64,000 nt of DNA, from positions 117,433-181,432 of the forward strand of contig JAFWEP010000004.1 of assembly GCA_017512885.1 (NCBI GenBank), given 5' to 3'. The DNA is from Erysipelotrichaceae bacterium (lineage in GTDB: Bacteria; Bacillota_I; Bacilli_A; Erysipelotrichales; Erysipelotrichaceae). The notes under the pieces are model-generated. The model was not told where the DNA came from, ran no database searches, and saw nothing but the letters and a program-made list of their open reading frames with translations. Numbering within the stretch: the first letter of the stretch is position 1; each line of letters opens with the position of its first letter. Both the position numbers and the translations under genes were made by a program. Of the stretch, positions 3,622 through 58,635 are shown one piece after another.

Positions 3622-4173
3622 ATGAAGTGTAAACATTGCGGAAAAGAAAATGTCGTACAGGCCTCCTACTGCGTACACTGCGGCAAGGCCTTCCCCGAGG
3701 AAGAAAGGAAAGAAGCGTTCGCAAAAACGATCTGGGGCAAGCTGCAGAAGCTGCATGAGCTGCGGGTCATCGCCGACCTTTCAGTCATCACCGGAAACCG
3801 TATCTTCCGGGCATTGTTCCTGCTGGGACTGCTCCTCATCGGTCTCCTCTTCTCCCATAACCAGGGCAGTCAGCTGCGCCTGTTGGAAAGTCCCGACTAC
3901 CGTCTGGCCTATAACGATACAGCCAAAGAATACTATCTCTTCTCCGATCAGGAGAAGATCTTCCTACAGCTCTATCTGCCCGGTAAGCCGGAAGGCATCA
4001 GAGTGTACAGCCTGAATGAAACAGGAGAAGTCCTGGAGACAAAAGAACTCAGCACTTCTGAAGCGCCGGTCCTGGAACGGGATAGTTCCTCCTATCGCAT
4101 CAGCGGAGTCTACAGTGACAAAGAAGAGTCGCTGCAGCTGCGTATCTACAGCAATGAGCTCTGGCCGGAATAG
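3622..4173 (+). CDS. Zinc-ribbon, single-pass membrane protein
   Basis: This is a 183-residue protein. It opens with MKCKHCGKENV and CVHCGKAF, a four-cysteine zinc ribbon at residues 3-24. A membrane helix follows at about 64-78 (FRALFLLGLLLIGLLFS), and then an extracytoplasmic domain of about 100 residues rich in D/E/S. GGAGG is 6 nt before the ATG, and the gene starts 1 nt after the preceding stop, so both belong to one operon. The shared architecture suggests duplication and divergence or partner proteins. The function is unknown. Confidence 0.7.
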   Translation: MKCKHCGKENVVQASYCVHCGKAFPEEERKEAFAKTIWGKLQKLHELRVIADLSVITGNRIFRALFLLGLLLIGLLFSHNQGSQLRLLESPDYRLAYNDTAKEYYLFSDQEKIFLQLYLPGKPEGIRVYSLNETGEVLETKELSTSEAPVLERDSSSYRISGVYSDKEESLQLRIYSNELWPE

Positions 4174-4296: not shown

Positions 4297-4316
4297 GGAA
4301 TCAATAAACCAATGAC

Positions 4317-4560
4317 AGAGCGGAGTACCTGATACGAACGTTCCAAGAGAGTCCCGGAGGGTGGAAAGGGACAGCGGGGAGATCAGCGAATGGGCTCTGG
4401 AGGGCGGACCGAATCAAGTAGGCTCCGACGGGACTTCCCATCCGTTACCAAGCGGGAGGCGCATGATGGTGCGCTCAGCGAGTGGATACCGTAAGGTATC
4501 AATTTGGGTGGTATCGCAGAAGAATACAGCTTCTGTCCCATGTGGACAGAAGCTTTTTAT
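4317..4560 (+). promoter_or_regulatory. T-box leader, tRNA-Trp specific
   Basis: The T-box core AATTTGGGTGGTATCGC is at 4501-4517. The small stem GATACC-GTAA-GGTATC (4485-4500) precedes it, in the stem III position. The terminator AGCTTCTGTCC/GGACAGAAGCT (4528-4554) is followed by TTTTTATTT. In stem I the strand GCTCTGG (4394-4400) pairs with CCAAGAG near 4343. The codon immediately before it is TGG at 4391-4393, in the context GAATGG, so the specifier reads Trp. Uncharged tRNA-Trp should favour antitermination and switch on the importer downstream. The specifier is assigned by eye, not by alignment. Confidence 0.88.
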
Positions 4561-8392: not shown

Positions 8393-9331
8393 TTATGCCG
8401 GGTTGAACTTGTCTTTGCCCTGCCTGCAGCGGGGACATTTCCAGTCTTCCGGAAGATCCTCGAAGGGGATATCGTCGTGTTCCGCCGGATCATAGACATA
8501 ACCGCAGATGCTGCAAACATACTTGCCGGTCTTCGTCTTGCAGGTCACTTCTCCGACCGGGATGGTCTCCGGCGGATCAGAGAGATCGATGACTTTCTTA
8601 TTCTCCAGGTTCTCATAGCCTAAAGGCGTATGGGTGGAGAGGTAGACGGTCGGATGGTGGGTGATGAAATCACGGACCCGGTCCATCGTCTCCCGGGCTG
8701 CCGGCAGATCTTCAAAGACCACCGAGAGCTTGTTGGCGTAGAGCGCTTCATCGGTATAGGTGATATCTCCGTGCAGCATGTAAAACAGTCCGTCATCCTC
8801 GACGATCACGATACTGTTGCCCTTGGTATGTCCTTTGGCCTTGATGTAGGTGATGCCTTCGGCGATCTTCTGGGATTCCGGGAAATTATAGTAGGGACCG
8901 TCGGTAAAGTATACCGGAACGATATTTCCGATGCCCTGCAGTTCCTCTGCCTCCAGTTCCTCCGCATTCACATAGATCTTCGCATTCGGGAAAGAACGCA
9001 GTTCTCCGGAATGGTCGCTGTGCTTGTGAGTCAGCAGGATCCTGCTGACCTGTTCCGGTTCATAGCCCAGAGCTCGGAAAGCTTCCATGTAGCTGCAGAT
9101 GTCTCTGCCGGTATAGATCAGGGTATCCTCGTTCGGTACTTCTTCCGGGGTGCCGGCCGGTAAGCCGGTATCGACCAGGATGACTTCCTTTCCGGTATCG
9201 ATCAGGAAGTTCTGCAGACCGGAACGGTAGCGTACCTGGGGATCGAAGTTCTGCGGTCCTTCCTCTCCGCCGAAAGCGAAGGGCTGGGACGCGAAGCCGT
9301 CTTTACGGAACCTGATGGCTTTGATGATCAT
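8393..9331 (-). CDS. MBL-fold metallohydrolase fused to a C-terminal rubredoxin domain
   Basis: This is a 312-residue protein. Residues 1-250 are a metallo-beta-lactamase fold with the metal motif HKHSDH (102-107), later H in LHGD and STHTP. The final 50 residues are a rubredoxin with two iron knuckles, [10 protein letters not shown] and CPRC. There is no flavodoxin domain, so it is not a standard FprA/ROO, and its MBL part resembles AHL-lactonase/glyoxalase-type hydrolases more than diiron oxygen reductases. It is the last gene of an operon with a PNPOx-like protein, a flavodoxin-like protein and glutathione peroxidase, so a redox role is likely. The reaction is not known. Confidence 0.8.
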
Positions 9332-26100: not shown

Positions 26101-29100
26101 GTTCTCAGACTGGACCGTGATCTCTTTGGCAGTGCCATCTTCATTAACGAAGTCAACACCAGTTACACGGATCTTGTGACCGTTCTCGTCCGTAAGAGCC
26201 ACCGGATCGCCGACTTCTTCGCCGTCTACCAGGATCGTGGCTTCAACCGTTCCGGTCGCACCCAGAACACTGACGACGATGTCCGTCGTTCCGGTATAGA
26301 CTGTCTTATACCCGTCCACCGGAGTTTCCAGAACAGTATAACGGATCGGGTTGTTGCCACCGGTCTCAAGATCTGCATAGGTGTAAGTCCAATTGCCGGC
26401 TTCATTCAGGGTCTGAGTAGAACCCGCAACAGCCGCTCCGTTCGCATAGAGCTGAACATCGACACTGCTTTCCTCGTCCTTTTCCCAGACCTTGTTGACA
26501 GTGATCTTGGTCTTGTCGTAAGCGTTGGTGAAGGTAACACCGTAATCCTTGTTGGATTTAGCGACTACGCTGCTGACCGATCTGGAGTCTGTCACAACTC
26601 TGGCGACATCATCGTCTCCCCAGACTTCAGCACTGGAGAAGACATAGTTCTCCGGCATCGTAGCACTCTCCGTAAAGGTATAGGTCGTACCGGCCGGTAC
26701 GTTACCGAAACGGATATTGTTGTGGGAGGTCATGTTGTCGATATGCAGTTTCGTGCCGTTGGGGGCATAGTAGTAGCCTGTCGCGGCTCCGGACTGATTG
26801 ACTTCAGCAGTCCAGTTGGTCGGAGAGAGACCCATTACCATGGAAGAAGTATTGTAATCCCACATCGAGAACCAGATCGCTTCCTGGTAGGTGTAGGTCG
26901 ATATGGCATCTTCGCCGGTACCGGTCGTTGTCACCGTACCGTAAAGGACAACGGAGTTTCCTTCTTCTGTGTAATAGAGAGCCTTGCCGTTCGCATCAAC
27001 AGTAACACTGATGCCATCCAGGTTGGTATAATTGTATGTACCGTCGCCGTTGGCGGTCACTTCCTGCTTATGCGGGTCAAAGGCTGCATTAACAGTCAGA
27101 TCAAAAGTGAATTCGGCAGTTCCCGGATCATCACCTTCGATATTCTTATATAAGGAAAGGTAACTTCTCTTGGTATTGGTAGCAGTCAGGTTGCCGGTCG
27201 CGCCGGAAGTAGACAGTTCATAGATATGTCCTGCCACTTTATAGTAGGTCTTGCCATCTTCCTGCAGAAAGATATTGCTTCCCATAGCGGTGTTAATCTC
27301 GGCAGCTTTTGCCTCGTTTTCAACGAGTACCAGCGAAGAGATCACCGTTGCCGAGTTGATCAGCATCGGACGTACGGTCTCTACATCCAGATCCCAGTAG
27401 TAGGAACTGTCGTCCATTTCCGAGAAGGCATAATCATGACCCTGGTCAAGGATCTTGACAGATTTGATCGTTGTGTTGTCTTCTTCGTATTCCTGATGGA
27501 TCAGACCGGTGGAGATATTGACTGTTGCGGTATAGTTGTTTGCCGCAGTCATCTCTACATCATAGAAGTTCTCTCCGTCCTTGGTGACCGTCATCGTAAT
27601 GTCGGTAGCTTCCGTGATCGGATCCCAGGACTTGCTGACAGTCATGGCTGAAGATACCGTAGGAACACCGCCCAGAGTATTGAAGTTGGAGGTCTGCGGG
27701 CCGTCATCCGTTCTGGTATCTGTATAGCTCAGGGTCGCAGTCGTATTGGTCGTCAGAGCATAGTCTTCACTGAGATACTTTCTGATATTCGCATCGAGGC
27801 TGGCGTACGTGACCGTTCCGTTCTTCAGATCGGCGATCAGGTCATAGGTATACTGGCTCGGATAGACATCAAAAGTAACGGAGTAAGTAACACCGTTCAG
27901 CAGCGTGCCGACGCTCTTCAGATCCCAGTCTACTGCACCATCAACAAACTCTGCAGTCGGCGGATTATAGTTGTAGAAAGCATTCGCGGATTCCCACTTA
28001 TATTTGAAAACACCGCTTGTAAGGGTACCGGTCACGGTGACGGAATTCGATCCCCATGTGATCGTATAAGTACCATCATTATTATTGGTCAGGGTAAAGG
28101 TGACAGTATCACCGGTGACCGGATTGACACGGGTAAACTGATTATTGACTACCTGAGGAATGGAAAGCCAGTATTCATACGAAGTCTCATCAACTTCAAG
28201 AAGCTCAGCGATCTCACCCGTACTGGTCGCGACTGCCGCCGTTGTACCGTCTTCCATGGAAACAGCAGAGATGCCTAAGGTGCTAGCGATCTGTTCAAAG
28301 ATATCTTCAATTGCAGCTTCCAGAGCGGCAGAATTATTGGCGTTATAATAATTCGGCGTCGCGACCGTATTGCCGCTGACATTGCTTCTTTCTGTTCCGT
28401 TCTGCGAGTAGTAGACCAGATCGTCCAGGAAGTCTTCCTCATTACCGAAAGCATAAATACCGAAGAAAGTCGTATTCGGTTCTTCGGCTCCTGTCGTCTG
28501 ATACTGTTCGATATCGCGGGCTTCATCGATCGCCGCAAAGTAATGCTGGTTTACTGTATACGGGGTGGGATGCGAAACATTCTGCTGAGGTGCACCATCG
28601 GTAACAAATATAACGAAAGTAGGATCGGAATCTGCACCTGTCAGAGTACCTGTACCGTCCAGAACATCTACCGCTTTTCTTAAACCGGCTTCCCAGTTCG
28701 TACCGCTCGCATAAGTGAGTTTTGTAGATGTTCCGTTGCTTGCCAGATGATTCAGGTAAGTATTCTTATTGTCTGTCCAGTCCTGAATAACAACAGCCGC
28801 CCCTCGGGAATCGGAGTTATTAAAGGTAACCAGAGCCATTTCTACACCGCTGTATCCGAACAGACCGTTCGCAAAATCATAGACCGTTTTTTCAGCCGCC
28901 TGATTGCGGGTCTGCGTGGTGTAGCGGGTGCCGGTGTATTCAGTATAACGCCTGTTGTTCTGGTTGTACTGATATACCGTGCCAGTGTATGCTTCTGCAT
29001 CCGTCAAAGCAACATAGTTCGGCCTAGCTGTCGTTCCGGTATTCTTATACAGCTGGAACGGGTTGTATCCATAATAGGTAGAACCCATGGAACCGGTCGC

Positions 29101-43266: not shown

Positions 43267-43272
43267 ATCATC

Positions 43273-44163
43273 ATGTCGAAAAATACCCGTCAGGTCTTCT
43301 TTACGATCTTATTGGCCTTTGCCGCTCTGATCTGGGGCTCTGCCTTCGTTGCCCAAAGCATCGGTGCGCAGCTGGTCGGTCCTTTTACCTTCCTGGCTTT
43401 ACGCAGCTGGATCGCGGTCGTGATGATGGTGATGATGTTGCTGTATAAACGTTATATCCTGAAAAAGCCCTCGGTCCTGCCGCACTTGCGCTTTGACCTG
43501 CGGGGCGGTTTCTTCTGTGCCTTATTCCTCTTCCTGGCTTCCCTGCTGCAGCAGATCGGCATCGCCTATACATCGACTGCCAAGGCCGGCTTCATCACGG
43601 CCATGTATGTGGTGCTGGTACCGGTGATGACTCTCTTCATGGGCAAAAAGATCAGTAAGAGGATCTGGTTCAGCGTCCTCTTAGGCGTCATCGGTCTCTA
43701 CCTCTTAAGCATGACCGGCGGCTTCTCCCTGCAGCTGGGCGATGCCCTGGTCCTGATCTGCGCTTTCCTCTTCAGTTTCCAGATCCTGGCCGTCGGCCGC
43801 TACGCCCTGCGCACCGATCCGATCGTCTTATCCTTACTGCAGCTCTTCTTCACCGCTCTCTTCAGTACGGTGTTCATGTTTATTTTTGAAGGGATCGACA
43901 TCCCGGCCATCAAAGCCGCTTCCGGCTCGATCCTCTATGCCGGCGTGCTCAGCTCCGGTGTTGCCTACACCATCCAGACAGTCACCCAGCGGGAACTGGA
44001 TCCGACCATTGCTTCCCTCACCATGAGTCTCGAGAGCGTATTTGCCGCGCTGACCGGCTGGATCGTCCTGCACCAGACGCTCACTACCAGAGAACTGACC
44101 GGCTGTGTGATCATGTTTACAGCGATCATCCTGTCGCAGCTGCCGGAGAAACGCTCTTCCTAA
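43273..44163 (+). CDS. EamA/DMT family exporter
   Basis: This is a 296-residue protein. The start at 43273 is fixed by the promoter placement and the family start (FFTILLAFAALIWGSAFVAQ). It has ten membrane segments in two EamA repeats, each with the family residues (GSAFVAQS at 20-27, and SLTMSLESVFAALTGWIVLHQ in the second). It exports a metabolite or drug-like compound; the substrate is unknown. It is convergent with the TSCPD gene. Confidence 0.88.
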   Translation: MSKNTRQVFFTILLAFAALIWGSAFVAQSIGAQLVGPFTFLALRSWIAVVMMVMMLLYKRYILKKPSVLPHLRFDLRGGFFCALFLFLASLLQQIGIAYTSTAKAGFITAMYVVLVPVMTLFMGKKISKRIWFSVLLGVIGLYLLSMTGGFSLQLGDALVLICAFLFSFQILAVGRYALRTDPIVLSLLQLFFTALFSTVFMFIFEGIDIPAIKAASGSILYAGVLSSGVAYTIQTVTQRELDPTIASLTMSLESVFAALTGWIVLHQTLTTRELTGCVIMFTAIILSQLPEKRSS

Positions 44164-52279: not shown

Positions 52280-52573
52280 TCATCGCACCCGGAGCTCCTC
52301 TGCTGGAGAGACCTGCAGCCGCAATCCCAGGGGATGCAGTATCTTCAACAGTGTATCCAGATTCGGCGTGATCCGGAACGTTTCAATACGAGCGATCGAA
52401 GACTGCGGCATGTTGCAGAGATCTGCCAGCTCCCGCTGGCTGAGACCAAGCATATTCCTCTGTTCGATGATCGTGCCGATGATCATGGACAGTTCTTCGA
52501 TCCTTTCCATCTCTTCTTTCCGTTCCGGACTGATATTTTTAACATAATTCTTATAATCTTCCCAGGATTTCAT
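52280..52573 (-). CDS. HigA-like XRE antitoxin
   Basis: This is a 97-residue protein. The HTH (LGLSQRELADLCNMPQSSIARIE) is in the middle, with a C-terminal LDTLLKILHPLGLRLQV helix typical of HigA partners of Gp49-type toxins. It overlaps the toxin gene by 4 nt. It appears intact while the toxin frame is broken. Confidence 0.85.
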   Translation of the reverse strand: MKSWEDYKNYVKNISPERKEEMERIEELSMIIGTIIEQRNMLGLSQRELADLCNMPQSSIARIETFRITPNLDTLLKILHPLGLRLQVSPAEELRVR

Positions 52574-52936
52574 GATATTGTTCCCTTTCTTTGCAGGTAA
52601 TCATTGATCTCTCTACGAGCTCTCTTCAATTCTTTTTCAGGTGTTTTTTGTGTGCGTTTGCGAAAAAGATGAAGAAGAACAAATGTGCTTCCTCCATCGC
52701 TGAAGTAGAAGATTCGATTTACGCCCGGTCTTAATTCCCACAGATCATTCTCTATGTGTTTCGAAATGATCACAGGGAGTCTCGTTCCTTTTTCCTGCAG
52801 TAACTGAATATAAAGACTGATCTGTTGATACTGGATCCTGGCATCTTTACTGAAGAAGGATCGTCGATGCAGATTCAAGCATTTCCCATAACTCAGATCG
52901 ATTGTCTTTGGTCTCGTAGAATATGATCTGAAACAT
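52570..52936 (-). pseudogene. HigB/Gp49-type toxin, frameshifted near the N-terminus
   Basis: The true start is ATG 52936, with GGAG about 8 nt upstream, reading MFQIIFYETKDNRSELWEML, then ES. It goes out of frame because of an extra base at 52870. The continuation HRRSFFSKDARIQYQQI...KRARREINDYLQRK is one frame away and runs to 52570. The second part contains the Gp49 core (LWELRPGVNRIFYF and HLFRKRTQKTP). A TTG at 52878 could start a short N-terminally deleted form, but no ribosome binding site supports it. It is probably inactive. Confidence 0.75.
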
Positions 52937-53062: not shown

Positions 53063-53087
53063 TAAAAAGGACCTCCTCAGAGATCCT
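53063..53087 (-). terminator. Terminator after the WYL regulator gene
   Basis: AGGATC/GGTCCT (53087-53068, minus strand) with an 8-nt loop and TTTTT downstream. Confidence 0.5.
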
Positions 53088-54100
53088 CACTCCTGTTTCT
53101 CTCTCCTCCGATAAGCCTTTTCAGCAATGGAATAGAACTTATGGAGATCATTCTGTAGATCCTTCGGTTCCAACACTACCGCATGTCTGCCGAACTTCAG
53201 GAAATACTGGAAAGCCTGCGAAGGAGCACACTCAAAGGTATAGATATCTCCTTCCTTCCCTGTCAGACGGGGACGGTGCAGATAGATCTTCTTCAGCATA
53301 TCCTGTCCTCTTTCCGTAAGCCTGACCTTTACCAGCGGAGCCGTATCGCTGCGGTAGGCAAACTGCGGACCGTACTTCAGCATCATCCCGAAGACTTTCT
53401 CATTCTCTTCGCTGAAGGAAGCTGCTTCATTCAGGATGATCACCTTCCGTAAACGGGTGATCCGGAAACTGTAGGCATTCCCCTTGTATTCCCCGATCAG
53501 ATAGTTGAAGAGCTCTTCCTTGGAATTGGTGATCCGGTAGGGAGAGACGATATGCATGGCATCGTAGGATGTCGTCGTAAAGTAGATCTTCCGTTCGTTT
53601 GCGATCGCTTCCTCGATCGTTTCCACCGTCTCCTTGAAGATGATCCTCTCCCGGCGGTCCTGCGGCAGTAAAGTATAGCTCGCCAGCATGTTCCGGAAAT
53701 AGTTGGACATCGAAGAGTTCCGGATATGGTAGGATTCGATGAACTGAAAGATCCGGGAAGTATGTCTGGTCGGTTTGATGGAGATAGTGACTTCCGAAAG
53801 GTTCCCTTCCAGCTGATTGGACTTCGTTTCCACATAGTTCTGGATATCGGAAGCGATCTGCCGGATCTCCATGCTGTTCAGCGAAGAATGTTCGGCAATG
53901 ACGCCCTGGATATGATCGAAGATATCGCTGCTGCGTTCATGGTAGAGCTCATAGTAGTTCTCGATCAGGACATTGTAAAAGTCATTCCGGTTCAGAGAAC
54001 CGTCTTTCTTGAAGAACTCAAAGAGTTCCATGTCCTTCAGCAGGATATTCTGTACCTGTTCCGACAGATAGACCTTGATCTTTTCTTCCATAAAACTCAC
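53087..54100 (-). CDS. Ribbon-helix-helix / WYL-domain transcriptional regulator
   Basis: This is a 337-residue protein. The first 50 residues (KIKVYLSEQVQNILL, a turn, then SLNRNDFYNVLIENYY) have the strand-helix-helix pattern of ribbon-helix-helix DNA binders. The middle part is helical. The WYL region (about 170-260) includes KIYFTTTSYDAMHIVSPYRI and YLIGEYKGNAYSFRITRLRKV, followed by a C-terminal extension (WCX-like). WYL proteins sense nucleic-acid or nucleotide ligands. It faces away from the RNA array/DUF2828/rtcB locus and is its likely regulator. The ATG at 54100 has AAGAAGGTGAG ahead of it. Confidence 0.8.
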   Translation of the reverse strand: MSFMEEKIKVYLSEQVQNILLKDMELFEFFKKDGSLNRNDFYNVLIENYYELYHERSSDIFDHIQGVIAEHSSLNSMEIRQIASDIQNYVETKSNQLEGNLSEVTISIKPTRHTSRIFQFIESYHIRNSSMSNYFRNMLASYTLLPQDRRERIIFKETVETIEEAIANERKIYFTTTSYDAMHIVSPYRITNSKEELFNYLIGEYKGNAYSFRITRLRKVIILNEAASFSEENEKVFGMMLKYGPQFAYRSDTAPLVKVRLTERGQDMLKKIYLHRPRLTGKEGDIYTFECAPSQAFQYFLKFGRHAVVLEPKDLQNDLHKFYSIAEKAYRRREKQE

Positions 54101-54109
54101 CTTCTTACC

Positions 54110-54115
54110 ATTATA
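54110..54115 (-). promoter_or_regulatory. -10 box of the WYL regulator gene
   Basis: TATAAT on the minus strand, 9 nt ahead of the translation start. The AAGAAGGTGAG ribosome binding site lies between the two, so this may instead mark a very short leader. Confidence 0.5.
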
Positions 54116-54126
54116 ATACCCTTTCT

Positions 54127-54190
54127 GGGGTCACTATTCTATAGAGTATTCCTTTAATTAAAGTATTATTGGTTATTCTAAGGGGTCACT
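54127..54190. promoter_or_regulatory. Intergenic control region with a direct repeat
   Basis: GGGGTCACT occurs at 54127-54135 and 54182-54190, 55 bp apart in the same orientation, between the WYL regulator and the RNA array. These are candidate operators for the ribbon-helix-helix/WYL protein. No clear sigma70 promoter for the array could be fixed. Confidence 0.45.
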
Positions 54191-54259
54191 CAGTAATCTT
54201 TTCTGAGAATCGAAATCTATGTGTATATCCTTTACCATGAAGATGCCGGATGATCCGGA

Positions 54260-54352
54260 AAGACGCAGACCGCAAACCATTGGATGACTCTGGTGAAGGC
54301 GTTCGGCTTCGGCTGTCCGTCTGGGGTTCGACTCCCCACTGAATAGCGTCTT
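54260..54352 (+). ncRNA. RNA-array unit 1: tRNA-mimicking (Y-RNA-like) RNA
   Basis: The closing stem is AAGACGC (54260-54266) with GCGTCTT (54346-54352), 7 bp. Inside are a GCAAAC motif (54272-54277), a D-arm-like ACCA/TGGT stem (54276-54279, 54291-54294) with a GG-containing loop, and a CGGC-TTCG-GCTG tetraloop hairpin (54304-54315). A perfect T-arm follows: TGGGG-TTCGACT-CCCCA (54322-54338). Seven nucleotides separate the T-arm from the closing stem and there is no CCA, so it is not a normal tRNA. Bacterial Y RNAs (YrlA type) have this kind of tRNA-like module. Confidence 0.7.
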
Positions 54353-54358
54353 GTAGAA

Positions 54359-54413
54359 AAGGTGCGTACCGCAAACTATAGATCTTGACTGTCAATCTCT
54401 ATAAATGCATCTT
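54359..54413 (+). ncRNA. RNA-array unit 2
   Basis: The closing stem is AAGGTGC (54359-54365) with GCATCTT (54407-54413), 7 bp with one G-U. ACCGCAAAC follows the 5' strand as in unit 1. An inner stem TATAGA/TCTATA (54377-54382, 54398-54403) is capped by TTGA/TCAA. It is 6 nt from unit 1. Confidence 0.6.
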
Positions 54414-54429
54414 GTGATCTACGGCAAAG

Positions 54430-54494
54430 AACGACACCAACTGCAAACTCAGCGAACTCCTTGTCAGGAAATCTGACCCGCATAACGTGTCGTG
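54430..54494 (+). ncRNA. RNA-array unit 3
   Basis: The closing stem is ACGACAC (54431-54437) with GTGTCGT (54487-54493). Its sequence differs from the other units but is fully compensated. GCAAAC is at 54443-54448. An inner GTCAG/CTGAC hairpin (54463-54467, 54473-54477) carries a GAAAT loop. Confidence 0.6.
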
Positions 54495-54497
54495 AGT

Positions 54498-54570
54498 AAG
54501 ACGTCTTCAGCAAACCTTTCACTCATAAGCTTGGTGGCTGCTAAGGAACGATCCTTAGATATGACGTCTT
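54498..54570 (+). ncRNA. RNA-array unit 4
   Basis: The closing stem is AAGACGTC (54498-54505) with GACGTCTT (54563-54570), 8 bp. GCAAAC is at 54510-54515. The inner hairpin CTAAGGA-ACGA-TCCTTAG (54541-54558) is perfect. It is 3-4 nt from unit 3. Confidence 0.62.
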
Positions 54571-54575
54571 GAAGA

Positions 54576-54656
54576 AAGATGCTTTCAGCAGAGAGAGGGA
54601 TAAACCGACAAGCGAGTGCTCCGTTTTACCCGCACCGGTCTCACAAAAGGCATCTT
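54576..54656 (+). ncRNA. RNA-array unit 5
   Basis: The closing stem is AAGATGC (54576-54582) with GCATCTT (54650-54656). The internal-loop motif has diverged to GCAGAG. Inner pairings are less clear: GGGATAAA near 54598-54605 can face TTTTACCC near 54624-54631. It ends 4 nt before the GC-rich hairpin. Confidence 0.55.
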
Positions 54657-54659
54657 GAA

Positions 54660-54678
54660 AAGCCGGCATTGCCGGCTT
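54660..54678 (+). terminator. GC-rich hairpin closing the RNA array
   Basis: AAGCCGGC-ATT-GCCGGCTT (54660-54678). No T-tract follows, so it may be a processing or partial termination site that lets some transcripts reach the DUF2828 gene. Its AAG...CTT ends echo the array units. Confidence 0.5.
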
Positions 54679-54734
54679 CCACTTACAGGAACAGCAGTGA
54701 AACATTCGCTGCAATGACAGAAAGAAGGGATACC

Positions 54735-56180
54735 ATGACATTCATCAACGACATCAAACAGGAACAGTCCTGCACCTATACCGAAAACGGAGCCCTGGCC
54801 CTCAGCACGACCCAGGATGTCCTGGCAGACCTTTTTGCGACTGCCGGTGCTCTGCGCAGACGCGAAGAGTCCGAGATCGAACAGAAGTTCGCCAAAGCGA
54901 TGATCGCCGATCCATTGCTGGCGACGAAACTATCCTTCTATACCCGCGATGTCCGGGGCGGTCTCGGCGAACGCCGGACCGGCCGCATCTTCTGGCGTTA
55001 CCTGGCCAAGGCCTATCCGGAGATCCTGCGCAGGAACCTTGCGCTGATCGGCGAATTCGGCCGCTATGACGACCTGATCGCTCTGCTGGATATCCAGCCG
55101 GCGATGGTCACTTCCTTCATTCAGGAGCAGCTGCAGAAGGATCTGCAGGCCATGAAGGAAGACAAGCCGGTCAGCCTGCTGGCCAAGTGGCTGCCTTCGG
55201 TCAACACTTCCAGCCCGGAGACCGTGAATAACGCCAGGCGTCTGGCCAAAGGCCTGCACATGAGCGAGAAGGAATACCGTAAGGTCCTGTCCGCTCTGCG
55301 CAAGTACCTGAAGGTCACCGAAGTATCGCTTTCCGCTAAGGATTACGACAGCATCGCCTACCCGGAAGTTCCTTCCCTGGCCATGAACCGCTACCGCCAT
55401 GCCTTCTATACGCATGACGAAGAACGCTTCAAAGCGTATCTTGAAAGCGTACAGAAAGGCGAAGCAAAGATCAACGCCTCCGTACTTTACCCCTACGACA
55501 TCGTCGAGAAGTATCTCTACCAGACCAACGATATCGATCCGGTCCTGGAAGCCCAGTGGGAAGCCCTGCCGGACTACACCGAAGGAGACGAACGTTTCCT
55601 GATCGTGGCCGATGTCTCCGGTTCGATGTGGGGAAGACCGATGGCAACTTCGGTAGGTCTCGCCATCTACTTTGCGGAGCGCAACAAAGGCCCCTTCGCC
55701 AACCACTTCATGACCTTCTCGGCCCGCCCGGAACTGGTCGAAGTCAAGGGCGAGACCCTGCGCGACAAGATCATCTACGTTCAGAATGCCGAATGGACGA
55801 TGAACACCGATCTCGAAGCAGCATTCATGCTGGTACTGAAGACCGCCCTCAGAAACCATACTCCGGCCGATGAACTTCCTACCTCCTTAGTCATCATCTC
55901 CGACATGGAGTTCGATTATTGCACGGAAGGAAAACTGTTCTACGATGAGATGAAGGAACGCTATGCCAAAGCAGGTTACAAGCTTCCCAACGTCGTCTTC
56001 TGGAACGTCAACTCCCGTCAGGATACCTATCACGCCTCCTTCGACACCCCCGGTGTACAGCTGGCCTCCGGTCAGTCTCCACACGTCTTTGAGACACTGG
56101 TCAAAGGAGTGAACCTTACCCCTTATCAGTACATGTTGGAAGTCCTGAACGATCCCCGTTACGAAAGGATCACGGTCTAG
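54735..56180 (+). CDS. DUF2828 / TROVE-like vWA protein (Ro60-related)
   Basis: This is a 481-residue protein. The start at 54735 is set by GAAGGGA and the family beginning. Residues 20-270 form helical repeats of the DUF2828/TROVE type (ENGALALSTTQDVLADLF, KLSFYTRDVRGGLGERRTGR, GEFGRYDDLIALL). A vWA domain follows with MIDAS DVSGS (Asp293, Ser295, Ser297) and the Thr in MNTDLEAAF. Ro60-like proteins bind the ends of misfolded RNAs and Y RNAs. The upstream RNA array and the downstream rtcB make an RNP/RNA-repair role likely. The name DUF2828 versus TROVE would need a profile search. Confidence 0.82.
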   Translation: MTFINDIKQEQSCTYTENGALALSTTQDVLADLFATAGALRRREESEIEQKFAKAMIADPLLATKLSFYTRDVRGGLGERRTGRIFWRYLAKAYPEILRRNLALIGEFGRYDDLIALLDIQPAMVTSFIQEQLQKDLQAMKEDKPVSLLAKWLPSVNTSSPETVNNARRLAKGLHMSEKEYRKVLSALRKYLKVTEVSLSAKDYDSIAYPEVPSLAMNRYRHAFYTHDEERFKAYLESVQKGEAKINASVLYPYDIVEKYLYQTNDIDPVLEAQWEALPDYTEGDERFLIVADVSGSMWGRPMATSVGLAIYFAERNKGPFANHFMTFSARPELVEVKGETLRDKIIYVQNAEWTMNTDLEAAFMLVLKTALRNHTPADELPTSLVIISDMEFDYCTEGKLFYDEMKERYAKAGYKLPNVVFWNVNSRQDTYHASFDTPGVQLASGQSPHVFETLVKGVNLTPYQYMLEVLNDPRYERITV

Positions 56181-56200
56181 GGCTTCCGGAAAGGAGCCCT

Positions 56201-57406
56201 ATGATCACCATTCAGGGAAGATACAATACGGCATACGTCTATGCCGAAACCATAGAAGAAACAGCAAGGGAGCAGATCAGAGACCTCTGTGACATGGAGG
56301 TCTTTGCCCCCTGCCATATCGCCGTCATGCCGGATGTCCATGCCGGAGCCGGCTGCACCATCGGGACGACCATGACCCTGAAGGATGCGGTCGTTCCCAA
56401 CATGGTCGGAGTCGATATCGGCTGCGGGATGGAAACGGTGGAGATCGCCGAAAGGGAGATCGACCTGCCGAAGCTGGATGCGCTGATCCATCAGCAGATC
56501 CCCTGCGGCATGCATATCCGCAACAGGAGACATCCCTACACGCAGCAGATCGGTCTCTCGCAGTTGCACTGTTATGAGGAACTCAAAAGCATTGAGAAGG
56601 AATACTGCGCCCTGGGGACTCTCGGCGGAGGCAATCACTTCATCGAGGTGGATAAGGACGAAGAAGGAAGGCTCTACATCGTCATCCATTCCGGTTCCCG
56701 CCATCTGGGCAAGAGTGTAGCCGAGCTCTACCAGGAGAAGTCCTGGCGTCAGCTCAACGGCAATGCCCGCGAAGACATCGAAAGAGTCATTGCGGAATAC
56801 AGGGCAGAAGGCCGTCAGCAGGAGCTCTCTGCGAAACTCAAGGAGATGAAGGAGACCGTGAAGACGACTCTCCCCAAAGAGAGAGCCTACTGCACGGGAC
56901 AGCTCTTCGAAGACTACATCCACGACATGAAGATCGTGCAGGAATTCGCGATGCTGAACCGGAAAGCGATGATGGACATCATCCTGCAGGGGATGGGTCT
57001 GACCGCTGCCGATCAGTTCACCACCATCCACAACTACATCGATACCGAGAACCGGATCCTGCGCAAAGGCTCGGTCTCCGCGCAGAAGGGTGAGAAGCTC
57101 CTCATCCCCATCAACATGCGTGACGGTTCCCTGATCTGCATCGGCAAGGGCAACCCGGACTACAACTTCTCGGCTCCGCACGGCGCCGGGCGGCTGATGT
57201 CCCGCTCGGAAGCCTTCCGCAGTCTGAGTCTCGAAGAATTCAGGGAACAGATGCAGGGCATCTACTCCACCACCGTATCGCAGGATACGCTGGATGAATC
57301 TCCGATGGCCTACAAATCGATGGATGAGATCCTCGCCAACATCGCTCCGACGGCTGAAGTCATCAAGGTGATCCGGCCGATCTACAATTTCAAAGCTGAG
57401 GAATAG
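56201..57406 (+). CDS. rtcB: RNA-splicing ligase RtcB
   Basis: This is a 401-residue protein. The metal site is MPDVHAGAGCTIG and VDIGCGM (Cys75), with further ligands in GGGNHFIEV and SGSRHLG. The guanylylated His is in APHGAGR (His327). It joins 2',3'-cyclic-phosphate or 3'-phosphate RNA ends to 5'-OH ends with GTP. GGAAAGGAG precedes the ATG, and the gene lies 20 nt after the DUF2828 gene. The pairing with a Ro60-like protein parallels known rsr-rtc operons. No RtcA cyclase or RtcR activator is present. Confidence 0.93.
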   Translation: MITIQGRYNTAYVYAETIEETAREQIRDLCDMEVFAPCHIAVMPDVHAGAGCTIGTTMTLKDAVVPNMVGVDIGCGMETVEIAEREIDLPKLDALIHQQIPCGMHIRNRRHPYTQQIGLSQLHCYEELKSIEKEYCALGTLGGGNHFIEVDKDEEGRLYIVIHSGSRHLGKSVAELYQEKSWRQLNGNAREDIERVIAEYRAEGRQQELSAKLKEMKETVKTTLPKERAYCTGQLFEDYIHDMKIVQEFAMLNRKAMMDIILQGMGLTAADQFTTIHNYIDTENRILRKGSVSAQKGEKLLIPINMRDGSLICIGKGNPDYNFSAPHGAGRLMSRSEAFRSLSLEEFREQMQGIYSTTVSQDTLDESPMAYKSMDEILANIAPTAEVIKVIRPIYNFKAEE

Positions 57407-58269: not shown

Positions 58270-58635
58270 ATGTTTGATCTGATCTTTTACGAAACGGAGG
58301 ACGGAAAACTTCCTGTGTCAGATCTTCTGAAAACTCTGGAGCCCAAATTGCACGCCAGAGTCATCTCATATCTGGAGATACTGGAAGAAAAAGGAAATGA
58401 ACTGCGTATGCCTTATACGAAGCATCTCGATGACGGCATATTTGAATTATGCGTCTCACAAGGCAGCAACATCGTCCGGATCCTCTTCTTCTTCCTTCCC
58501 CAACGGCAGATCATCGTAACCAATGGGTTTGTAAAGAAGCAGCAGAAAACTCCGGTAAAGGAGATCCTTCTGGCAAAAGAAAGAAGAGACGATTACCTTC
58601 TCCGTTGTTACAAAGGAGGTACCAGACCATGCTGA
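58270..58635 (+). CDS. HigB/Gp49-type (RelE superfamily) toxin
   Basis: This is a 121-residue protein. It has the Gp49 pattern: MFDLIFYETEDGK, VISYLEILEEKG, KHLDDGIFELCVSQGSNIVRILFFF and NGFVKKQQKTP. It is an intact mRNA interferase-like toxin in toxin-first order. GAG-type Shine-Dalgarno is weak, consistent with low toxin production. The 3' end overlaps the antitoxin ATG by 7 nt. It provides an intact comparison for the broken copy at 52.6-52.9 kb. Confidence 0.87.
   Translation: MFDLIFYETEDGKLPVSDLLKTLEPKLHARVISYLEILEEKGNELRMPYTKHLDDGIFELCVSQGSNIVRILFFFLPQRQIIVTNGFVKKQQKTPVKEILLAKERRDDYLLRCYKGGTRPC

Follow-up and report, generated by a model that had tools for sequence, protein, structure and literature searches.

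What are the five short, stem-closed units that stand in a row before a gene for a vWA-domain protein in the genome of an Erysipelotrichaceae gut bacterium (2.09 Mb in 50 contigs), and what might they do? The units lie within a 64-kb window, the whole stretch of DNA analysed here, to which all coordinates refer. They are preceded by a gene for a WYL-like regulator on the minus strand and followed, on their own plus strand, by a gene for a DUF2828/DUF7788 protein and by rtcB, encoding an RNA ligase. By comparison with relatives, the units were found to belong to a family that shares an end helix with conserved neighbouring bases, herein designated the handle, and that accompanies DUF2828 genes in bacteria and phages. 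We consider it probable that these are Y-RNA-like RNAs, bound through the shared handle by a Ro60-like protein and showing tRNA parts as decoys or recruiters, with RtcB as the resealing enzyme and the WYL-like protein in control.

The five units, all on one strand (54260-54352, 54359-54413, 54431-54493, 54498-54570 and 54576-54656), were located where a preliminary description of this DNA had placed them. The linkers, which it had put at about 3-17 nt, measured 6, 17, 4 and 5 nt, and the closing stems of 7 bp agreed with its account, with one G-U pair in unit 2. The motif GCAAAC, reported there for four units, was found 5 nt inside the 5' strand of units 1-4, the corresponding sequence in unit 5 being GCAGAG. 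Each of the five units has exactly five bases between its 5' stem strand and a GCA, and a G directly after its 3' strand. As to tRNA parts, a UUCG-capped hairpin occupies the place of an anticodon arm in unit 1, and the CTGTCAA of unit 2 is the GUC anticodon loop of relatives L066 and L072 (comparison loci are designated by L numbers), with just two adjacent pairs in unit 2 (pairing by eye); no tRNA part could be named in units 3-5. In L031 and L032, relatives from the same genus, each array comprises four units, of which one bears a T-arm, and the T-arm unit of L031 additionally has a UAU anticodon loop. The window array is thus a plain, somewhat diverged member of the family.

The rule defining this family was derived from 72 bacterial loci, left from 81 after removal of 9 duplicates, in each of which the 1.5 kb preceding the DUF2828 gene was scanned. 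Locus counts are not independent because near-identical neighbours remain (e.g. L044/L046 and L070/L081). The rule consists of a 7-bp helix, two bases of any kind (N2), ACAGCAA, the cargo, the 3' strand and G. A stem was taken as in register when the seven bases located two before ACAGCAA pair with a downstream strand, with at most one G-U pair. Such a stem was detected at 70 of 104 occurrences of ACAGCAA, against 71 of 878 pooled occurrences of the remaining 104 orderings of the same letters, and three words, each a shifted version of the motif itself, accounted for 33 of these 71. For ACAGCAA inside the DUF2828 coding region the count was 0 of 5, and on the antisense strand 2 of 11. When one mismatch was allowed, 124 units were found in sense orientation compared with 6 antisense, 9 in coding and 3 in reversed sequence; judged from the antisense control, about 6 of the 124 would be chance matches, probably including L029 441. 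The 3' G, which was not a criterion in finding units, follows 69 of the 70 exact-word bacterial units and 113 of the 124 with one mismatch, the corresponding counts being 20 of 24 for viral contigs and 32 of 35 for named phage or plasmid loci. The helix is retained despite letter changes, with double changes at 7 of 7 pairs (50 units), a result that is built in because units were selected by pairing; the unbiased test is the word control. This comparison demonstrates that the handle exists, that its register is kept and that it is linked to the DUF2828 protein family. A conserved helix of 5' and 3' ends, as expected of Y RNAs, is present, and would be the site of protein binding. The preliminary description had named the lack of conserved stems or GCAAAC loops in homologous loci as fatal to its proposal; this outcome did not occur, because homologous arrays retain both the stems and the GCAA strand.

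Ordinary tRNA genes were ruled out as the identity of the window array by ARAGORN, which called 0 tRNA genes in the window, and by Rfam, whose tRNA model gave no match there at gathering score. The Rfam scans likewise ruled out a known family for the window units: neither the gathering-score nor the permissive scan of the array gave a match to YrlA (RF02553), and the sole result of the permissive scan was the weak tmRNA match to the T-arm of unit 1. Coincidental hairpins were ruled out by the word control and by the antisense, coding and reversed-sequence controls in relatives. It is the relatives, not folding energy, that exclude chance, because the single-unit z-scores are modest (-1.4, -2.8, -3.1, -4.5 and -1.5 for units 1-5).

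The cargo of the relatives takes four forms. In 10 units (by script label) the order is that of YrlA, namely T-arm, acceptor 3' strand, loop, acceptor 5' strand and D-arm. The Rfam YrlA model matches this part in L055 (E 1.5e-8) and L115 (E 5.7e-7), both under gathering score and both leaving out the end helix (model positions 23-89 and 23-85 of 114); L107 gave no Rfam YrlA match. For 41 more T-arm units the script assigned another order, two of them being in YrlA order by eye (the unit finder mislabelled L075 3666 and L114 4578 as normal order). Many of the 41 are tRNA-like folds within the helix, some without a clear D-arm. One such fold is L033 3733-3835, the duplicate of which in L008 was identified by ARAGORN as tRNA-Ala(tgc); three units of relatives were called tRNA in all (L002, L007, L008). 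Units bearing a T-arm were present in 38 of the 72 bacterial loci. Between two array units of L042, a tRNA-like stretch (3697-3747) was seen by eye to have an acceptor-like stem and a T-arm, and no D-arm.

In the third form the handle is itself a hairpin within an open tRNA body, usually between the D-arm and the anticodon arm. We found 37 such RNAs (15 bacterial, 21 viral and 1 in a named locus). Rfam called tRNAs on five handle-in-tRNA RNAs at 111-126 nt, against the usual length of about 73; three of these five were in the finder catalogue, which missed L041 3214-3338 and L050 3691-3816. Viral contigs L082, L092, L094 and L098 contribute a further seven tRNA matches, 112-144 nt long. Alignment of 19 examples displayed acceptor, D-arm, handle and T-arm, with double changes at 18 of 23 pairs. 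This form and the YrlA-order form are circular permutations of each other.

The fourth form is that of short units, 171 of them distinct. A 5-bp hairpin with a 7-nt loop was detected in 60 (24.2 in shuffles, standard deviation 4.6), and loops of 3-6 and 8-10 nt stayed within about 2.3 standard deviations of shuffles. U33 together with a purine at position 37 was present in 37 of the 171 (shuffles 3.8; maximum 11 of 300), some of which are chance matches because the finder scanned entire viral and named loci, coding parts included; examples of chance among the units labelled plain are L087 7082, L092 6690, L094 6541 and L098 6675. A CU-NNN-AA loop on at least 4 pairs was found in 29 of the 171, forming 27 clusters (about 0.7 in shuffles), a count that includes L031 3677, L076 3607 and L117 4400, called plain despite a T-arm or tRNA-like fold. 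In 23 aligned anticodon-arm examples, double changes occur at 5 of 5 stem pairs, these examples, too, having been selected by pairing. In 23 of the 29 the last anticodon base is U, compared with 101 of the 274 tRNAs that were called across the fetched loci. NNU anticodons are those of tRNAs carrying N6-threonylcarbamoyladenosine (t6A) at position 37.

Of the 72 bacterial loci, 60 contained one or more units, beside the Ro60-like gene as in the window, and 46 contained at least two; two of the twelve unit-less loci have next to no upstream sequence. The IMG/VR contigs yielded units in 16 of 17 cases and the named phage or plasmid loci in 13 of 15, the counts of each group including some background matches. 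Escherichia coli phage tootiki (MN850647.1) has four units at 43,270-44,037, beside tootiki_56. Hosts of the named phages include Escherichia (L107), Bacillus (L100, L118), Mycobacterium (L099, L115), Staphylococcus (L110), Klebsiella (L111), Sinorhizobium (L114) and Listeria (L101), and a Subdoligranulum plasmid (L117) is included. L109, L113 and L116 gave one to three one-mismatch matches, some of which are likely chance, L113 including one handle-in-tRNA RNA. As a control, TROVE loci of Bacillota gave no unit in 5 matches of about 3.2 kb each, from 4 of 392 genomes; this control is weak because the matches are few and short. Several phage Ro-like genes adjoin tRNA clusters or sit within them. 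A Pistol ribozyme match (8629-8691) was noted in viral contig L097, near a Ro-like gene and many tRNAs.

By Pfam analysis, the partner protein contains the DUF2828 and DUF7788 domains only; the TROVE model (PF05731) was matched neither by this protein nor elsewhere in the source genome. Its predicted fold combines a helical-repeat ring with a vWA domain, the architecture of human Ro60, and by this prediction the protein is Ro60-like, bearing out the preliminary description. Comparison of relatives' loci also supports its proposal that Y-RNA-like, partly tRNA-like RNAs are tied to the vWA protein, by which the units are presumably bound. Relatives of DUF2828 are widespread, with at least 8000 protein clusters scored and 681 of 50,697 phage records; among the phage entries examined, most are named hypothetical, RNA-binding, Ro-like or DUF2828 protein.

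Published RNA data on Listeria phage CKA15 bear on expression. Three non-coding regions in the 2 kb ahead of the Rsr-like gene CKA15_055 rank among the most transcribed of the genome, and the authors suggested that one or more of them may be Y RNAs (PMC12282133). At 40 min, CKA15_059 and CKA15_060, which lie inside the strongest region, 26,236-26,727, and are regarded as likely non-coding, account for about 67% of phage transcripts (PMC12282133). We located units in CKA15 (OR088597.1) at 25,552-25,497, 25,463-25,408 and 25,394-25,290 on the minus strand, in the gap directly before CKA15_055, and they likely correspond to the other transcribed regions described in that account. The Ro-like protein CKA15_055 was detected in purified phage particles with 57.1% coverage, with the authors' caution that not every such protein need be particle-associated (PMC12282133).

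The neighbouring genes were then compared. The preliminary description had spoken of an array fused to its genes; the two are merely adjacent, and the gap between the DUF2828 gene and rtcB is 20 nt. It had also treated RtcB as a constant partner. Against this, rtcB was present in the fetched flanks of only 17 of the 72 bacterial loci (flank lengths vary, and the L072 match is just 29% identical). Among 272 Erysipelotrichaceae genomes, 50 have a DUF2828 relative, 59 have RtcB and 30 have both, against 10.8 expected; the source genome has a single gene for each, its rtcB match being split in two pieces. RtcB is a frequent but optional partner, since co-occurrence exceeds expectation but few flanks contain the gene, and its absence from most fetched flanks led us to drop the role of RtcB substrate as the core function of the units. 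A divergent WYL-like relative was found in 12 of the 72 loci, window included, the 11 others being 41-57% identical; Pfam scores of the WYL and WCX domains in the window protein fall slightly short of curated cut-offs. Pairs of boxes of the form [AG][GT]GGTC[AG], 54-56 nt apart, are located directly before the array in 11 of these 12 loci (GGGGTCA/GTGGTCA types, in the window at 54127-54190 and in L005, L007, L010 and L031-L037), against a density of 0.09 per 300 nt in the remaining bacterial loci; L017 has a WYL-like gene without paired boxes. The paired boxes are a candidate operator of the WYL-like protein. The hairpin behind the array was not called by the terminator scan of the window. 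Flanking the locus are a Gp49-like gene with a helix-turn-helix gene, a toxin-antitoxin-like pair (52280-52878), and a second Gp49-like gene (58270-58635); a T-box leader lies at 4303-4543 (Rfam E 5e-22).

Table. Features of the unit array and its neighbours (window coordinates)
Feature	Position	Strand	Details
WYL/WCX-like regulator gene, divergent	53087..54100	-	Pfam WYL E 6e-4, WCX E 7e-4
Box 1, GGGGTCACT, candidate operator	54127..54135	+	direct repeat D7
Box 2, GGGGTCACT, candidate operator	54182..54190	+	55 nt past box 1
Unit 1	54260..54353 (3' G included)	+	stem AAGACGC/GCGTCTT, AGACCGCAA strand, UUCG-capped hairpin, T-arm
T-arm of unit 1, TGGGG TTCGACT CCCCA	54322..54338	+	from sequence; weak tmRNA T-arm match 54321-54338
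Unit 2	54359..54414 (3' G included)	+	stem AAGGTGC/GCATCTT, GTACCGCAA strand, 7-mer CTGTCAA
Unit 3	54431..54494 (3' G included)	+	stem ACGACAC/GTGTCGT, CAACTGCAA strand
Unit 4	54498..54571 (3' G included)	+	stem AAGACGT/ACGTCTT, extended; CTTCAGCAA strand; z -4.45
Unit 5	54576..54657 (3' G included)	+	stem AAGATGC/GCATCTT, TTTCAGCAG strand
Hairpin AAGCCGGCATTGCCGGCTT 3' of array	54660..54678	+	inverted repeat I9; without T run
DUF2828/DUF7788 gene, Ro60-like vWA protein, 481 aa	54735..56180	+	
rtcB, RNA ligase	56201..57406	+	Pfam RtcB PF01139 E 2.7e-62

In the mechanism that we favour, the units would be transcribed and bound by the neighbouring Ro60-like protein via the 7-bp end helix, the N2-ACAGCAA-type 5' strand and the 3' G, the variable part being cargo within this handle. 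The cargo of relatives is a tRNA body without anticodon arm (in YrlA order, or as an open tRNA with a grafted handle), a whole tRNA-like fold within the helix, or a body-less anticodon stem-loop. By displaying such parts, the Ro ring would titrate or recruit tRNA-attacking or tRNA-processing enzymes, chiefly anticodon nucleases. In loci that include rtcB, the 2',3'-cyclic-phosphate breaks made by these nucleases would be resealed by the ligase. The divergent WYL-like regulator would control expression via the paired boxes. A decoy or protective function is preferred on two grounds: the parts that recur as cargo are just those seen by anticodon nucleases, and RtcB closes the type of break that these enzymes leave. 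More speculatively, and with considerable doubt on our part, the family may represent the tRNA in pieces, bodies without anticodon arms and arms (mainly ANN-decoding, NNU) without bodies on a common Ro-binding handle, serving as reusable nuclease bait that is resealed by RtcB; either permutation would work, and some RNAs may be circles.

Several observations weigh against the decoy reading. In the window, the promoter scan detected no sigma-70 site ahead of the array on the plus strand, a T-arm is present in unit 1 only, a well-paired anticodon stem-loop in 0 of 5 units, and units 1 and 5 are of unremarkable stability. Among relatives, ten bacterial loci having upstream sequence gave no unit, nor did L093 or phages L108 and L112 (the latter two within 6 kb); the CU-NNN-AA loop is missing from 142 of the 171 plain units; and minimum-energy folds gave no tRNA fold for L062 and no anticodon stem for L118. 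The strongest CKA15 region (L119 3237-3728, about 490 nt) contains no unit motif. The repair half of the model is not general, because RtcB is absent from most flanks, and we know of no nuclease target for any of these loci.

A serious rival, which we regard as possible, is that the RNAs tether an exonuclease or RtcB to the Ro-like ring and control RNA entry, as in the Deinococcus RYPER particle described in reviews (PMC8394870, PMC4726728), the tRNA-like parts being points of attachment for tRNA-processing enzymes. The Ro fold and the Y-RNA-like handle agree with such a gate, and several distinct RNAs per locus would fit several partners, but the recurring 7-nt loops with U33, R37 and NNU anticodons, as well as the phage genes beside or inside tRNA clusters, are left unexplained. 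Splicing was considered improbable. Here the handle would be intron-like, excised from tRNA-embedded RNAs with RtcB joining the exons, and permuted arrays would release cargo circles. The presence of the handle in both circular permutations, the anticodon arm with U33 and A37 that follows it in L062, L057, L058, L041 and L074 (by eye), and the membership of RtcB in the tRNA-splicing ligase family all fit this model. Against it, most fetched flanks lack RtcB, in many embedded RNAs no anticodon arm can be read after removal of the handle (L044, L064, L070; by eye), no nuclease gene was identified at the window locus, and array cargoes would make tiny circles; on these four points the intron model was set aside as first choice. 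That the array is an autoregulatory leader of the Ro-rtcB operon, binding its own products without function in trans, seems very unlikely to us. In the window and close relatives it does stand after the candidate operators and before the start codon of the Ro-like gene, but in several phages units follow the gene (L107, L110, L115) or precede it by up to 3 kb (L118), and single anticodon-stem-loop units far from the Ro-like gene (L091 266-322, about 4.7 kb; L096 2024-2081, about 3.0 kb) suggest action in trans.

The proximity of Y RNAs to Ro60 genes, their tRNA mimicry and their linkage to rtcB are already described (PMC7790460, PMC8394870, PMC4726728). Like YrlA of the Rsr system (RF02553), the units are small RNAs beside a Ro60-like gene whose ends form the putative protein-binding helix, and L055 and L115 match the YrlA model in a tRNA-like domain without anticodon arm. 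Unlike YrlA, the end helix lies outside this match and obeys the N2-ACAGCAA...G rule, the partner is DUF2828 instead of TROVE, at least two units occur in many loci, often as anticodon stem-loops only, and some open tRNA bodies carry the handle as a hairpin. The Salmonella rsr-yrlBA-rtcBA operon, as described, also unites a Ro60-like gene, Y RNAs and rtcB, and its authors proposed that the tRNA-like domain of YrlA might inhibit an anticodon nuclease (PMC7790460); the present locus differs in its DUF2828 protein, in five units in a row, and in a divergent WYL-like gene where Salmonella has RtcR. The putative Y RNAs of CKA15 are likewise abundant non-coding RNAs upstream of an Rsr-like gene of the same family, but the passages that concern them state no motif, structure or family (PMC12282133). 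A jumbo-phage survey, in its passages on phage tRNAs with RNA ligases, refers to the RNA just as a 'tRNA-like partner' (PMC7824862). Our literature search found no paper combining DUF2828 and RtcB, the DUF2828 papers found being concerned with plants, and no such array or anticodon-arm Y RNA besides the CKA15 proposal; an earlier description may nevertheless exist. Additions to the preliminary description are the N2-ACAGCAA...G rule, the permutation seen in tRNA bodies, mimicry of anticodon stem-loops, the presence of these RNAs in many phages, the G after every unit and the T-arm of unit 1. To our knowledge, the handle, DUF2828-linked arrays, handle-in-tRNA RNAs and anticodon-arm Y RNAs have no earlier description.

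If this reading is true, a simple rule (7-bp stem, N2-ACAGCAA and 3' G) would assign a partner RNA set to the DUF2828 proteins, and the role of bacterial Ro60/Y RNA/RtcB systems would become testable in E. coli K-12 through its phages. It would also suggest a concrete explanation for the presence of a Ro60-like gene in phages that have tRNA clusters.

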